The translations under genes were made by a program, and so were the position numbers. Below, piece by piece: positions 40,654-47,570 of a DNA stretch of 58,887 bases (position 1 is the first letter of the stretch; each line of letters opens with the position of its first letter). Origin of the DNA: a bacterium (lineage in GTDB: Bacteria > UBP6 > UBA1177). The DNA lies in NCBI GenBank assembly GCA_017538365.1, contig JAFYIZ010000017.1, forward strand, positions 1-58,887, read 5' to 3'. The notes below the pieces were generated by a model that saw only the letters and a list, made by a program, of their open reading frames with translations, was not told the DNA's origin and made no database searches.

Positions 40654-43443
40654 TTAATTCTTTATCTCTTTCAGCAAAAATTTGAGTGTCGAGATGTTCG
40701 CTCTGTTGTAGACATCGTCCCCGCCGCCGATCCCAGCCGTGTAGGGCACGAAATGCTCAAAATAGGACATGTTGAAGGCGTCGCTTATTTCGGCTTTATA
40801 GGTTTTGCCGCTCTCAAGTTCGACTTCGACGAACGACGATTCGCCCCATCTGTCCCAGTTGTCAGCCCCCAAATGAGGCATGAAAACCATCTTTTCCATG
40901 ACGACATTATTATTTTCATCGGTGATCCTGACTATTTTGTTGCATGAAGTGATGCCGGTGTCTATCGGGCGTCTGCTGCCGTATTCAACAGTCACGATGT
41001 AAGTTCCGCTCTTCGTCGGCGTGATATTTGGAACTGAGAGAACGGACGAGGGGGTTCCCCAGTCGGCAAAGTGCGCTCTTCCGTGGTCGGAAGCGTTCGG
41101 GGTCTGATCAAAAGCGGAGCCTGCCCAGAACTTCATTGTTGTTCTGTCAAAATCAGGCCCCCAGTAGCAGACAGGATCACTGTGGTGGCTCTCCCACCCT
41201 TCCGAATTTAGCGCGGCAACGCTGTAGCAGTATGATTTTTTTGCATGATCCCCTGAGTTTTCATCGACCCACGAAGTCGTCTGGACATTTGACGCAACTT
41301 TTACGCCGTCGCGGTAGATGTTGTATGAAACTGCGTTTTCCGAAGCCGTGAAAGAGACTTTCAACCTATCGTTTTCCAGCGTCACACCGTAAGGATCAAG
41401 CGGAATCGTGACAGGAAGCGGAGCCCAGCACTTGTTCGGATCGGCGTTGCAGTCAACAAGGTTGATCTCACCTGATTCATCGGAAAATCTAAGTTCCATT
41501 TCGATCAGACTCCCCTCTTTCAAGGAGTCGGGAAGAAAACCAGGAACTCCATCGATTTTAAGCGATTTCTGAACATAAAAACCTCTGGTTTCGCCGTTTT
41601 TAGGCGGAAGAAGTATTTTAAGCGTAAAAGTTTTTCCTTTGAATTTCAGGTTTTTGAGAACTATTTCAGAGCTTCCGGCAAAGAACGTGTTTCTCAAATT
41701 GACCGGAATTTTCGGAGAGAAGCTAAACTTTAGCAAACTCTGACTGCGGCCGAAAACCGAGTCGAGGACCATCGAAAGGAATCCGGCGACACTCCAGAGC
41801 TGACGCTTTGAATTTACGACGGGACCGCTCATCTCCCTGCCCTGAAAATCGGTCCAGGTATCCTCATGCCATGCGTCGAGAGTGGTGAATTCAAAATTTT
41901 CCATGTTCGAGAGGTTGAAAGCCGCCCCGCGGACCAGACTCATGAAAGCGTTTTCATAAAATTTGTCGTTCCCCGCTTTCGCGGCCGCTCTGAGAGCGTA
42001 TGAAGTAACGAAAGGCCAGATCGCGCGGTTGTGGTATATCCTTGTTTTGGGCTCCTGTGGGAAAATTACGGCAGGACCTGCTTCGGTAACCGGATATTCC
42101 GCCATGATCTCCGCACTTTGTGTATCATCGGCTACAATGAAAAGAATAGCCAGCGACTCTCCCAGAAGATCTCTCTTATCGACTGCCGAGCTATCAAAAA
42201 AAGTCGTCTTCATGCTTGAAAAAGTCTTTCTGTCGGCAAGATAAAAGTTTGATCTTATCGCATTTTTCAAATCATCAGCCTGTTCTGCGAAATACAGAGC
42301 CTCTTCGGTTTTTCCGAGTTCCACTGCCATAGACGCGGCAACATGCATCGCCATATAATAAAGGACATTCGTAGAAAGAGTCTTCGACATGCCGATGTGG
42401 ACAGTATTCGTTGCAGTCCAGTTCGGATAGGTCTGCTCGCGCCAGTCAAGGAAAGACTGCTCGCCGCGATACAAACCGTCATCCGGATCAAAAACAGCCT
42501 TCCTGTCGGCTTCCAGCGTGTTTTTTATAGCTTCGTACGATTCAGACAAAAAGTTGTCATAGTCGCTTCCGTCAAGGTTTACGAGAGTCTCCATTGCTCC
42601 TATCGCCCAAACGATGCGGTCGGTGCTGACAGGCCAAGATCCGCCTGAGCCTGTATCCTGAACTATCTGAGTATTTCCGCCGCCGGCAGCGCTTTTTCGT
42701 GCCGAGATCTTGAATTTGAGAGAATTTTTCGATTTCTGCGGTTCAAGGAAAGCGATAGCGGAATGAACTGCGTAAGCGGTGTCGCGCGTCCAGACATAGT
42801 GCCAGTTAGCTCCGGTCTCGAAACAGTCGCATGGAACCTGATCTCCGTTACTCATGCTGTAATCGCTGATCGCCGAGACCTTGTTTTCGTTGAGTTCAGT
42901 TATAGCAAGAGCAAAAAGTGCGTCGAGCATGGTGTTTCCGCTGCGGAGGATAGGACTTCCGGCAGTTTCCGAAACCGTTCTCTGATGCGGGTCACCGCTC
43001 TCGCGGAGTTTCGCATTCGTTGTCAGAGTGTAGGTCCTGAGCTCATCGCCTGTTACCGAAACCGTTCCGACTTTTCCGTTCCACTCAACTTTTGAAGTGT
43101 CAAAGACTTCAGGCTCATCCTCATCAGGAGTTGTATCGGGATCATCCGGATCGTCATCGCAATCCGTTTCATCACAGGAATGATCCCCTGGTTCATAAGT
43201 GTCGGTATCGGAATCGTCATGCTCCCCGTCAGGATCCGGATTTTCAGGATCATCATCGCAATTTGTTTCATCACAGGAGAGGTCCTGACGTTCATAAGTA
43301 TCAGTATCGGAATCATCATCACTGTCAGGCATAACGGTATCATAGTCGGAATCATCATGATTTTCATTGTTGTCGTCTTTTTTGGAGCCGCCGCAGCTGA
43401 ACACAAAAAGTGCTGCAAGAATAAGTAAAAAAAGTTTTTTCAT
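40654..43443 (-). CDS. Surface lipoprotein glycosidase with six-hairpin catalytic domain, FN3 and C-terminal carbohydrate-binding-like domain
   Basis: About 929 residues from the ATG at 43443 (a GTG 9 bp earlier is possible). The signal ends VFS-C (Cys17). An acidic linker (about residues 20-115) contains two copies of a Cys-bearing DETxCDDDP unit. The catalytic part (about 130-640) reads as an alpha/alpha six-hairpin glycosidase: NWHYVWTRDTAYAV, WPVSTDRIVWA and a late TRIYHNRAIWPF. A fibronectin type III module (about 685-775) and a beta-rich C-terminal domain, perhaps carbohydrate-binding, follow. Closest to GH15-like or glucoamylase/debranching groups; the exact family is open. Last gene of a minus-strand operon. 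Confidence 0.85.
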   Translation of the reverse strand: MKKLFLLILAALFVFSCGGSKKDDNNENHDDSDYDTVMPDSDDDSDTDTYERQDLSCDETNCDDDPENPDPDGEHDDSDTDTYEPGDHSCDETDCDDDPDDPDTTPDEDEPEVFDTSKVEWNGKVGTVSVTGDELRTYTLTTNAKLRESGDPHQRTVSETAGSPILRSGNTMLDALFALAITELNENKVSAISDYSMSNGDQVPCDCFETGANWHYVWTRDTAYAVHSAIAFLEPQKSKNSLKFKISARKSAAGGGNTQIVQDTGSGGSWPVSTDRIVWAIGAMETLVNLDGSDYDNFLSESYEAIKNTLEADRKAVFDPDDGLYRGEQSFLDWREQTYPNWTATNTVHIGMSKTLSTNVLYYMAMHVAASMAVELGKTEEALYFAEQADDLKNAIRSNFYLADRKTFSSMKTTFFDSSAVDKRDLLGESLAILFIVADDTQSAEIMAEYPVTEAGPAVIFPQEPKTRIYHNRAIWPFVTSYALRAAAKAGNDKFYENAFMSLVRGAAFNLSNMENFEFTTLDAWHEDTWTDFQGREMSGPVVNSKRQLWSVAGFLSMVLDSVFGRSQSLLKFSFSPKIPVNLRNTFFAGSSEIVLKNLKFKGKTFTLKILLPPKNGETRGFYVQKSLKIDGVPGFLPDSLKEGSLIEMELRFSDESGEINLVDCNADPNKCWAPLPVTIPLDPYGVTLENDRLKVSFTASENAVSYNIYRDGVKVASNVQTTSWVDENSGDHAKKSYCYSVAALNSEGWESHHSDPVCYWGPDFDRTTMKFWAGSAFDQTPNASDHGRAHFADWGTPSSVLSVPNITPTKSGTYIVTVEYGSRRPIDTGITSCNKIVRITDENNNVVMEKMVFMPHLGADNWDRWGESSFVEVELESGKTYKAEISDAFNMSYFEHFVPYTAGIGGGDDVYNRANISTLKFLLKEIKN

Positions 43444-43448
43444 GGCGT

Positions 43449-43748
43449 TCACTTATTGCTGTTGATAAAAAAATTAAAGTTGAAACTGCTGCCGTTTTCA
43501 TCGGCCGAATCAGCGAAAAATCCGTCTTTCACAATAAAAACAAGGACTAAGGCCAGGATCATAATGCCGATAAAGATGTAGGCACGTTTGATGAAAACTC
43601 CCAAACAAATAAAAAGTGCGGCAACAAGCCCGTAAAAAAGAGGTCCTACCTCAGCATTGACAAGCAGAAAAGAGAGGAACATCATTAAAAGCAAGTTTAT
43701 AAGATTCCACCAGACAATACGCCGTTCTTCAATTTTTTTTCCGATCAT
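43449..43748 (-). CDS. Small membrane protein
   Basis: A 99-residue protein with three or four hydrophobic segments (about residues 15-30, 36-50, 56-74) and an Asn/Phe-rich tail. I do not recognise a family. It lies 2 bp after the cNMP-binding gene and 5 bp before the glycosidase gene, so it is surely cotranscribed. Function unknown. Confidence 0.75.
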   Translation of the reverse strand: MIGKKIEERRIVWWNLINLLLMMFLSFLLVNAEVGPLFYGLVAALFICLGVFIKRAYIFIGIMILALVLVFIVKDGFFADSADENGSSFNFNFFINSNK

Positions 43749-43750
43749 CT

Positions 43751-44191
43751 CTATTTTTTACCCGATTTTTCGGCAAGTTTTGCGTTAAGTTCCCTGATGC
43801 GGCCGGTAAGGACTCTGATGACACCTAAAGCGACTTCGTCACGCTGTTTGAGGATTTCAAGGAAGTCGTCGCTTTCCATTTTCAAAACCAGAACATCGTT
43901 TCTCGCGATGATGTCCGCACTTCGCGGCTGGCTGTCAATAAGCGCCATTTCACCGAAACCCGCGCCCTCTTTCATAACGGCTACGACATTGCCGCCGACA
44001 ACGACTTCGACTTCACCCTTCACTATCATGAAAAGCTCTTTTCCGAGGTCGCCTTCGTTCACGATATACTGCCCTTTTTCAAAATTCTCCTCTTCGAGCA
44101 GTGCGGCGATATCGGCAAGCACTTCACCGGGAATGTCGTGAAAAAGCTCGATATTTTTGAGTGCAAGCACCCTTTCTACCCGTGTCAGCAT
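43751..44191 (-). CDS. Cyclic nucleotide-binding domain protein
   Basis: A 146-residue stand-alone cNMP-binding domain. The phosphate-binding cassette is GFGEMALIDSQPRSAD, with the Glu and Arg that contact cyclic nucleotides. No DNA-binding or catalytic domain follows. It starts 8 bp after the HEAT-repeat transporter gene and may act as its regulatory subunit; in other genomes such domains can be fused to similar transporters (from memory, to be checked). Confidence 0.92.
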   Translation of the reverse strand: MLTRVERVLALKNIELFHDIPGEVLADIAALLEEENFEKGQYIVNEGDLGKELFMIVKGEVEVVVGGNVVAVMKEGAGFGEMALIDSQPRSADIIARNDVLVLKMESDDFLEILKQRDEVALGVIRVLTGRIRELNAKLAEKSGKK

Positions 44192-44199
44192 ATTTCCTC

Positions 44200-47079
44200 C
44201 TAAGCTTCCGGTTGCAAAACAGAGCGTGAATATTCGCAGAGATACTTGTCGGTATCGTTCAAAAGATAGTGCGCGTCTGTTTTGGAAATTAATATTTTTA
44301 TGTAATTCATCGCGTAAAGTGCCGCTTCACGGACTATAGGACTCTGATCATACAGGAACATCTGAATCCTGCCGTAAATTCCGTCAATGTGTTCATGGGC
44401 AACCGCATAAAGCGTTACCGAGCGGACCCACTCCGAGTCATCTGAAAGCAGAGTTTCGATAATATCGTTGATCTTAAGCCTTTTTACACTGAAGAACTGA
44501 TAACCGAGACTGAGTTTTTCCTCTTCGGTTTTGCTCTCGATAAGCGGAACGATTATCGGCCGGATATCCTTGTCAACAATATTGTCGATGATTTCCAAAG
44601 CGTTGGCGCGCTGCGACGGAGCAACAAATTTTCTGGTTATGTTGAAGTAGATGTTGTCGAATAGCGTGTTGCCGTACATCAGCGAAAGTATTGAGAAAAT
44701 CCGCTGATAACAGTTATCGAGCTTTGTTGCCATGACATCAAGAAGGCAATCGGTCTTCAAATTCTTGCGAATCTGAACCGAGAAGTAAAGTGTCTGGAAA
44801 TATTGATAAATTTCTCTGAGAAGCAGCATTTTGAGTGCGTCTTTGTCGAGATTGACCTTTTCTACTTTGGAAACAAGTTTCTTCATGCTGTTGAGTGCGA
44901 TATTTCTCATTTCATCGCTTTCGACGTCAATAGAAGATGCAAGCAGCGTGAAGGATTCAGGCGTATAGATATCTCCCAGCATTTTTGCAACTTCACTTTT
45001 CAGACGGTAACTTTCAAGTTTGTTCGAAAGAATGTCTGCGGCAGGTTCAAGAATCTTTTCCCCGAACTTCGAGAGCACTTTTGCGACATCGAAACTGACT
45101 TCGCGATCGAAAAGCATGTAGAAAAGTTTAGGAATGAAGACATTGGAATTTATTTTAAAAGCAGCATTTACCGCAGCACGTCTGACATTCGGACTCGGAT
45201 CGTTCAAAAGTGCGAAAAGCTGCTGATCCATGTTTTTCTGCCCGAGCTCACCAAGAATATAGGCTGCGGCAGCACGGTCTACAGCGTTTTCCGATTCAAT
45301 GAATGCCTTGAGATACGATCCGGCAGTCATCGCACCTACGACTCCGGCATATTTGATAAGTGCGATAACAGCCGCTTCCCTTATCGCAATTTTGTCGCTT
45401 TCAAGGAATGGCGAAATAAATTTTACCGACTTGTCCATCTGGATATAACCGTAAGTCAGAATCGCCTCGCGCACGACATCTTCATCAGGTTCTTTAAACA
45501 ATTTCAATATGTTATAAGTATTATACCTGCTTTCCATACGGCGCATGAGAGAAAGGATTTTGACTTTGATTTTGGGGTTGGCCTTTGAAAGAAGCGCAAC
45601 AAAATCGCGTCCCAAAGCCGAATTTCCGGAACTTTCAACCATGTCTATCGCCATCGAAAGATCTTCGTCATCCCCGCTTTCTATCGCCTTCTGAACTATG
45701 CTCTGAAGGACGTTCGACTGCATCGTGAGCTGGTTCGTTCCGAAACGTTTTTTCTTGATATTGTCGATAAGGACTGAAAGATAACGGCTTCTGATCCCTA
45801 CTATCGTGATGAGCCATCCGATTCCTATTACGGTAACGATCCACGAAATAAGTTTGACATCCGAAGGAACGATCCCCGCCTTTCCGAGATAGCTGACGGC
45901 AAGAAGGATAAAGCCCGAAACGCCGATGAAGATCGGTTTTACCATACCGTCGATTATCGCCTTCGTCCTGCTTTTGACCTTCGGATCAAGCGGAATGTAC
46001 AAAAGCTGGATCGCCGCATCGTTTATCGTGTAGCGGAAAGCGCTGTCGCCAGATTTCGCCATCGTTATAGCCACAAGAGGCGCAGCAAAGCCGAACATCA
46101 TGAGCTCCGGCGGAACCGCGATAAAGAAAATCGAACTCAAAGTGAGTATCGCCGGCAGAATTCCCAGACTCATGAAAATGCTGAACTTAAGCAGGCGCGA
46201 AGTTGCGACAAGCTGGAAGAAAAGCGAGAAGACACCGCCGAAAATGGAGTAGACGAAACCGAAGTAAGCGGCAAGTTTCTGCGGATCGGTAATTTTATCT
46301 GAAGCTACGACCTTGAACTGGTAGTCGACAAGTGTGACAACGACGTAGATCAAAGCAATCATTATCGCGATGTATTTGACGTAAGGCGTTTTCGTGATGC
46401 TTACCTGCGAAGCTGCGGCTGCGGCTGCCTGTTTCGGTGTGAGAGTCTTCGATACGACACCTCTCTGCAGACGGCTCTGATATTTTTTTCCCATGTAGCG
46501 GACTATCAGAATGCAGCACAACATACACAAAGCATTGATAAAAAGAAGGTACTGGACTTTCCCGAGAAGAACGGCGAGTTTTCCGACCGAGCCGCCGACA
46601 GCCATACTTGCAATAATGCCGCCGCACCCGACAAAACCTAAAACTCGCTTTGCCTCACGCGAATCGAGAAGTTCGTTCGTGAATGACCAGAACTGGAACA
46701 TCATGAAGGCGCCAAGAAGCTCGATAAAAATATAAAGTGCTGAAAAAGCTGCGGAAATTTCATTATTGACAAGCCCTACAAATATAAGGACAAACACTAT
46801 TCCGATCGTGAAAGTGGTCGTTATGAGCTTATCCATCCGGTAGTACGAACTTTTTTTCGTGTAAAAGAAAGTCGCCGTCGAAACGAGTATCGCAACGCCG
46901 ATATACATGAACGAAAGCATCAGCCTGTCGCCTTTGTATTTGTTCAAAAACAGCGTATCTCTGACGATTCGTCCCATGACCATTATCGAAGTCGCCAGGA
47001 AATTGTATGCAAAAAGCAGGAGTGCCCGGTTTCTTTCATCCGGATTGTTCATGCTGAAAGCAGCCAGAAGCCTTTTCAT
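44200..47079 (-). CDS. NTT/MFS-like membrane protein with C-terminal HEAT repeats
   Basis: A 959-residue protein. Residues about 15-440 hold roughly twelve hydrophobic segments in the pattern of Npt1/Npt2 nucleotide-exchange-like or MFS carriers (RDTLFLNKYKGDRLMLSFMY near the start). Residues about 460-900 are soluble alpha-helical repeats of HEAT type: IREAAVIALIKYAG, NVRRAAVNAAF and WVRSVTLYAVAHE are clear helices. Transport of a nucleotide is not proven; many free-living homologues have no known substrate. It follows trmL by 2 bp. Confidence 0.87.
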   Translation of the reverse strand: MKRLLAAFSMNNPDERNRALLLFAYNFLATSIMVMGRIVRDTLFLNKYKGDRLMLSFMYIGVAILVSTATFFYTKKSSYYRMDKLITTTFTIGIVFVLIFVGLVNNEISAAFSALYIFIELLGAFMMFQFWSFTNELLDSREAKRVLGFVGCGGIIASMAVGGSVGKLAVLLGKVQYLLFINALCMLCCILIVRYMGKKYQSRLQRGVVSKTLTPKQAAAAAASQVSITKTPYVKYIAIMIALIYVVVTLVDYQFKVVASDKITDPQKLAAYFGFVYSIFGGVFSLFFQLVATSRLLKFSIFMSLGILPAILTLSSIFFIAVPPELMMFGFAAPLVAITMAKSGDSAFRYTINDAAIQLLYIPLDPKVKSRTKAIIDGMVKPIFIGVSGFILLAVSYLGKAGIVPSDVKLISWIVTVIGIGWLITIVGIRSRYLSVLIDNIKKKRFGTNQLTMQSNVLQSIVQKAIESGDDEDLSMAIDMVESSGNSALGRDFVALLSKANPKIKVKILSLMRRMESRYNTYNILKLFKEPDEDVVREAILTYGYIQMDKSVKFISPFLESDKIAIREAAVIALIKYAGVVGAMTAGSYLKAFIESENAVDRAAAAYILGELGQKNMDQQLFALLNDPSPNVRRAAVNAAFKINSNVFIPKLFYMLFDREVSFDVAKVLSKFGEKILEPAADILSNKLESYRLKSEVAKMLGDIYTPESFTLLASSIDVESDEMRNIALNSMKKLVSKVEKVNLDKDALKMLLLREIYQYFQTLYFSVQIRKNLKTDCLLDVMATKLDNCYQRIFSILSLMYGNTLFDNIYFNITRKFVAPSQRANALEIIDNIVDKDIRPIIVPLIESKTEEEKLSLGYQFFSVKRLKINDIIETLLSDDSEWVRSVTLYAVAHEHIDGIYGRIQMFLYDQSPIVREAALYAMNYIKILISKTDAHYLLNDTDKYLCEYSRSVLQPEA

Positions 47080-47081
47080 TT

Positions 47082-47540
47082 CTATTCCTCAAAATCTGTT
47101 TGTTTCATCGCTTCAAAAATCACGGCAGTCGCGGCACTTGCAAGGTTGAGACTCCGCACTCTGCCGTCAAGCATCGGAAGAAAGCGCGTCTGATCCTCAT
47201 ATTTTCCTAAAATTTCTCCGCCGAGTCCCGCCGATTCGCACCCGAAAACCAGAAAATCTCCGTTTCTGTAGTTTACCTTGTCGTAACGGATCTTCCCTTT
47301 CTGCGAAAAAAAGTGCATCTTCGAAGTGTCGTTCGCCGCAAAAAATTCGTCTTTTGAATCCCATTCGGTTATTTCAACAAATTTCCAGTAATCGACCCCC
47401 GCTCTTTTCACCGCCGCCGTATCGAGCTTGAAGCCGTAGGGTTTGACAAGGTGCAGCCTGCACTTCTGCGAAAGAACAGTTCGCGCTATATTGCCTGTAT
47501 TCTGCGGAATTTCGGGATTTACGAGCACAACTTCGAACAT
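47082..47540 (-). CDS. trmL: tRNA (cytidine(34)-2'-O)-methyltransferase TrmL
   Basis: A 152-residue SPOUT methyltransferase of normal TrmL length. Motifs: NPEIPQNTGNIART, then FGCESAGLGGEI and RSLNLASAATAV forming the SAM knot. It methylates the ribose of the wobble base of leucine tRNAs. The ATG at 47540 is preferred over the longer frame because the conserved FEVVLVNPEIPQ begins there and GAGAG precedes it. Confidence 0.94.
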   Translation of the reverse strand: MFEVVLVNPEIPQNTGNIARTVLSQKCRLHLVKPYGFKLDTAAVKRAGVDYWKFVEITEWDSKDEFFAANDTSKMHFFSQKGKIRYDKVNYRNGDFLVFGCESAGLGGEILGKYEDQTRFLPMLDGRVRSLNLASAATAVIFEAMKQTDFEE

Positions 47541-47570
47541 GACTCTCAACAAAAAAATCAAAAACTCTAT

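Follow-up and report, generated by a model that had tools for sequence, protein, structure and literature searches.

An NTT-HEAT/cNBD gene pair and its small membrane protein neighbour in a rumen bacterial lineage

Introduction

The locus described here encodes a transporter-like membrane protein with a long arm of HEAT repeats, a protein consisting of one cyclic-nucleotide-binding domain (cNBD), and a small membrane protein, and it raises the question of whether these are the separated parts of a single nucleotide-gated transport complex. A preliminary description of the same DNA proposed such a complex and considered no system of this composition to have been described, but both the pair and its fused form are already published: the available text of Major, Embley and Williams (2017; PMC5381601) reports proteins in which an NTT domain is joined to HEAT repeats (NTT-HEAT), cNBD genes that begin only a few nucleotides after such an NTT-HEAT gene, and single chains uniting all three domains (NTT-HEAT-cNBD). 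According to the same text, NTT-HEAT proteins are widespread in bacteria, occur also in Chlamydia and oomycetes, and were uncharacterised as of 2017, and the authors proposed that cAMP tunes ATP uptake (PMC5381601). A later characterisation of the NTT-HEAT family was not found in the papers searched, where the only use of the term after 2017 was in a diatom review.

The locus is a further instance of this described NTT-HEAT/cNBD class. It resembles the published pairs in domain order, in the spacing of a few nucleotides, and in the existence of fusions elsewhere, and it differs from them in belonging to a rumen lineage (UBP6-type MAGs) not named in the available text of PMC5381601 and in carrying a genus-specific small membrane protein gene after the pair. 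The fused form, known for instance from Cyanobacteria and oomycetes, contains in one chain the same three domains that are here divided between two genes (PMC5381601). The locus is therefore largely ordinary, a described two-gene module with a lineage-specific small neighbour, and its interest lies in the substrate and regulation of the NTT-HEAT family.

Results

Locus layout. The window, by which we mean the whole stretch of 58,887 nucleotides analysed (assembly GCA_017538365.1, contig JAFYIZ010000017.1), derives from a genome of 2.32 Mb that is 97.6% complete and in which a whole-genome profile search found one TLC gene. Its close relatives are rumen MAGs, some of them named UBP6. The features of the locus are listed in Table 1. 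The preliminary description had the order of the three genes right, as well as the gaps of 8 bp between the NTT-HEAT and cNBD genes and 2 bp between the cNBD gene and the co-directional 99-aa gene, and the single cyclic-nucleotide-binding domain that it assigned to the second gene is borne out by one cNMP_binding match. The AGGAGG Shine-Dalgarno sequence of the cNBD gene overlaps the stop codon of the preceding NTT-HEAT gene, and the 99-aa gene begins just past the cNBD stop codon without a clear Shine-Dalgarno sequence. All three open reading frames are genuine coding genes, as dN/dS against close relatives is about 0.03-0.06 for the NTT-HEAT gene, 0.01-0.04 for the cNBD gene, which is the most constrained part of the locus, and about 0.2 for the 99-aa gene. 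The SpoU/TrmL-like gene occupies the adjacent upstream position in the genus and also in a second family of the order, is absent from that position in other phyla, and likely shares a transcript with the NTT-HEAT gene, to which it has no known functional tie.

Table 1. Genes of the NTT-HEAT/cNBD locus and its flanks, in positions of the window
Feature	Coordinates	Strand	Remarks
SpoU/TrmL-like tRNA methyltransferase gene	47082..47561	-	Pfam SpoU_methylase 91 bits; 2 bp upstream of NTT-HEAT gene
NTT-HEAT protein, 959 aa	44200..47079	-	TLC/NTT membrane domain ~13-442, HEAT-repeat solenoid ~455-955
Single-domain cyclic-nucleotide-binding (cNBD) protein, 146 aa	43751..44191	-	Pfam cNMP_binding 75 bits
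Small membrane protein, 99 aa	43449..43748	-	about three hydrophobic helices
Lipoprotein gene downstream of small membrane protein gene	40654-43443	-	

Family and fold of the NTT-HEAT protein. The NTT-HEAT protein matched Pfam TLC (PF03219; cut-off 21 bits) with 58 bits at residues 100-433, and with 68.6 bits in the genome search, while its C-terminal HEAT repeats (PF13646/PF02985) scored 84 bits, for HEAT_2, and 47 bits. An AlphaFold2 model made from an alignment with 19 relatives (mean pLDDT 82, pTM 0.62) comprises 12 long helices within residues 13-442 followed by helix pairs, and the HEAT stretch, previously put at 450 residues, is slightly longer than that, at about 500. The top Foldseek ranks were the ATP/ADP translocators NTT1 of Chlamydia pneumoniae and of Arabidopsis, with target-normalised TM-scores up to 0.75 at 16-19% identity, and lower ranks were occupied by HEAT proteins such as PP2A PR65. 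Sequence searches agree with Foldseek on the NTT family. The name of TIGR00769 (NTP/NDP exchange transporter, NCBIfam) was rejected for the protein, its score of 55 bits falling far under the cut-off of 387. In a membrane-domain tree of 12 NTT-HEAT and 7 single-domain NTT rows, read as unrooted and containing several long branches, the two kinds of protein were split with support of 99/99, and the query was placed with the NTT-HEAT rows.

The NTT-HEAT and cNBD genes as a pair. In all 23 order-level genomes whose contig continues, the cNBD gene directly follows the NTT-HEAT gene, and the NTT-HEAT protein was found in every genus, family and order genome searched, with the exception of one that is 65% complete. 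Among distant genomes, separate neighbouring cNBD genes occur in G056, with a 14-bp overlap, and in G072, and the NTT-HEAT protein is fused C-terminally to a cNBD in three others (G041, G055, and G080, the last with two cNBDs). Both genes are under strong purifying selection. It is thus supported that the NTT-HEAT and cNBD genes are one conserved unit.

The small membrane protein. The 99-aa protein is hydrophobic from roughly residue 10 to 82, which fits three membrane spans, and has no Pfam or NCBIfam match. Within the genus, 13 of 15 genomes carry its gene at the site, and none of the genomes compared from outside the genus does. In the remaining two genus genomes the cNBD gene is followed by what we take to be a NUDIX gene, and the slot is filled elsewhere by genes whose sequences we read as encoding a DUF2141-like secreted protein (other genera of the family) and an SppA-like protein (another family). 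The 99-aa protein falls to 40% identity where the cNBD protein stays at 96%. Within the genus the gene is always accompanied by the downstream lipoprotein gene, and for the two genomes that do without it the available downstream sequence is short. The original idea of a single three-part unit consequently holds for the HEAT-bearing carrier and the cNBD protein, given their unbroken adjacency and the fusions, and fails for the small membrane protein, whose position is conserved only within the genus and refilled elsewhere and which evolves faster; likewise, the fusions for which the preliminary description had suggested a search join two of the three parts and leave out the 99-aa protein. The latter is probably a genus-specific neighbour or bystander and not part of the module.

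The lipoprotein itself combines a linker rich in Asp with a hairpin glycosidase-like domain (Bac_rhamnosid6H, MGH1-like) and additional domains at its C-terminus. A weak homolog of the 99-aa protein (E 1e-6, 29% identity) was seen in G015, from another genus of the family (L133, 7612-8477), where it lies on a different contig, directly before genes for an ABC-2-type permease and an ABC ATPase.

The cNBD protein and cyclic-nucleotide signals. The phosphate-binding cassette of the cNBD protein reads FGEMALIDSQPRSA, with Glu81 and Arg90, and the cassette Glu and Arg, which grip the phosphate of the cyclic nucleotide, are retained in nearly all of the cNBD partners compared. One genus member (G013; L041, 7881-8336) has an intact pair and has lost the cassette Arg (PSDADV for PRSADI), and cyclic-nucleotide binding is therefore not universal among the cNBD partners. 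The source genome also encodes a class III nucleotide cyclase (108 bits) with readable catalytic motifs. Because the cassette residues are kept and such a cyclase is present, control of the carrier by cyclic nucleotides, through docking of the cNBD protein on the HEAT arm, appears plausible from the sequences. A membrane protein with two cNMP-binding domains, possibly peptidase-like, is encoded elsewhere in the source genome (L085; G000:C20:28031-28666).

Substrate-site residues. The key charged residues of AtNTT1 are K155, E245, E385 and K527 (PMC3306366, PMC10654386), of which K155 is required for the binding of ADP and K527 for that of ATP (PMC3306366). When aligned to AtNTT1, the present protein has E120 at E245, D252, a conservative change, at E385, I385 or V387, depending on the alignment, at K527, and Y59 at K155 in an alignment including single-domain NTTs; these equivalences rest on about 20% identity and are hence uncertain, that of K527 most of all. 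The PDB alignment did not reach K155, whose match to Y59 was placed by way of the single-domain NTTs and is tentative, and the numbering offset of 84 that was used fits three of the four AtNTT1 residues. Across 19 NTT-HEAT proteins, the K155 site is Y or F in every case, the E245 site is E in 16, the E385 site is D or E in all, and the K527 site is never K, the lysine being replaced by Ile or Ala; G080, which is more divergent, carries a Lys close to the K527 site. As a control, the G029 single-domain NTTs in the same alignment carry K, K and R at the K155 site, and K at the K527 site in both sequences reaching it, and other single-domain NTT rows, from free-living genomes, vary at these sites. 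K381, one turn from the K527 equivalent, is conserved in 17 of the 19 NTT-HEAT sequences, and D252, K144 and R145 of the membrane domain are also conserved among them.

The protein thus shares with the canonical NTT/TLC translocases (AtNTT1, 9j3j-9j3m; Chlamydia NTT1, 9j3n/9j3o) its membrane-domain fold, the motifs FWxFxNE...EAKR and YIPLD...KxxID, and acidic residues at the E245 site and, in the form of D, at the E385 site, and it departs from them in the replacement of K155 and K527, the addition of a HEAT arm and a cNBD partner, and a structural-alignment identity of 16-19%. Since both lysines are replaced in the aligned NTT-HEAT proteins, classical ATP/ADP exchange is doubtful, and NTT-HEAT proteins probably do not perform it. 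Nucleotide parasitism was rejected as an evident lifestyle of the source organism, because its genome has purA and purH.

Discussion

The identity and pairing of the two genes show the locus to be an NTT-HEAT/cNBD module. We give about an even chance to the fuller reading that this module encodes a cNBD-regulated carrier, for which classical ATP/ADP exchange is unlikely, with the 99-aa protein as a bystander. For transport, an NTT-superfamily carrier with the MFS fold would take a phosphorylated anion, whether nucleotide-like or of another kind, across the inner membrane, and its cytoplasmic HEAT solenoid would serve as a docking arm. The separate cNBD protein would bind cAMP (or cGMP), dock on this arm, and, once docked, alter the activity of the carrier with the cyclic-nucleotide level. 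In the predicted fold of a natural NTT-HEAT-cNBD fusion, the transporter and solenoid were well modelled, and the cNBD had a pLDDT of 29-42 from a shallow alignment, so that the model did not place it and showed no contact between it and the HEAT domain.

The suggestion of Major et al., a normal ATP/ADP (nucleotide) exchanger with uptake tuned by cAMP, fits the shared fold and family, the identity of the best structural matches, which are ATP- and ADP/Pi-bound NTT1 structures, and the two largely conserved acidic positions, and K381 could substitute for K527. However, the lysines for ADP and ATP binding are both replaced in the sampled NTT-HEAT sequences, save for the Lys near K527 in the divergent member, the organism has purA and purH, and exported ATP would be without obvious use; we regard an exchanger as unlikely. 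The lost nucleotide-site lysines would also suit a membrane-anchored cyclic-nucleotide sensor scaffold, in which transport is lost or secondary and the HEAT arm recruits a cytosolic partner, and so would the well-conserved HEAT domain, which matches the transporter in length, and the strong constraint on the cNBD. The membrane domain is nevertheless also conserved, including D252, K144 and R145, as in a working carrier, which leaves a pure scaffold quite improbable in our estimation.

A three-part complex that includes the 99-aa protein, as first proposed, would account for the 2-bp spacing, the common direction, and the retention of the gene in most of the genus. We consider it highly improbable nonetheless, as the slot is taken by other genes in two genus members, other genera, and another family, the 99-aa protein diverges much faster than the cNBD protein in both dN/dS and identity, its weak homolog in G015 lies beside ABC-2 genes, and within the genus its gene always travels with the lipoprotein gene.

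For the cNBD-regulated carrier, the residue pattern predicts that NTT-HEAT proteins do not exchange ATP for ADP as plant NTT1 does, and the two-gene form in this rumen lineage offers a convenient test case for the docking of a cAMP-binding protein on a carrier. More broadly, the NTT-HEAT/cNBD family as a whole may consist of secondary carriers that are gated by cyclic nucleotides and move some other substrate instead of exchanging nucleotides, a generalisation that we hold to be doubtful; if true, it would represent a novel principle of regulation among transporters with the MFS fold, in the form of a detachable cNBD that docks on a HEAT arm.

Related arrangements were seen at other loci. A 1233-aa NTT-HEAT protein fused to two cNBDs (L137, 2721-6422) has an arrangement known from Bacilli and oomycetes, and L136 (5659-10875) holds a row of single-domain NTT, NTT-HEAT, cNBD and response regulator genes. 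G022 encodes a second MFS-HEAT protein (L135, 3246-6270) of 866 aa, very divergent and without a TLC match, beside a cNBD gene, and this second MFS-HEAT/cNBD pair is a paralogous unit.
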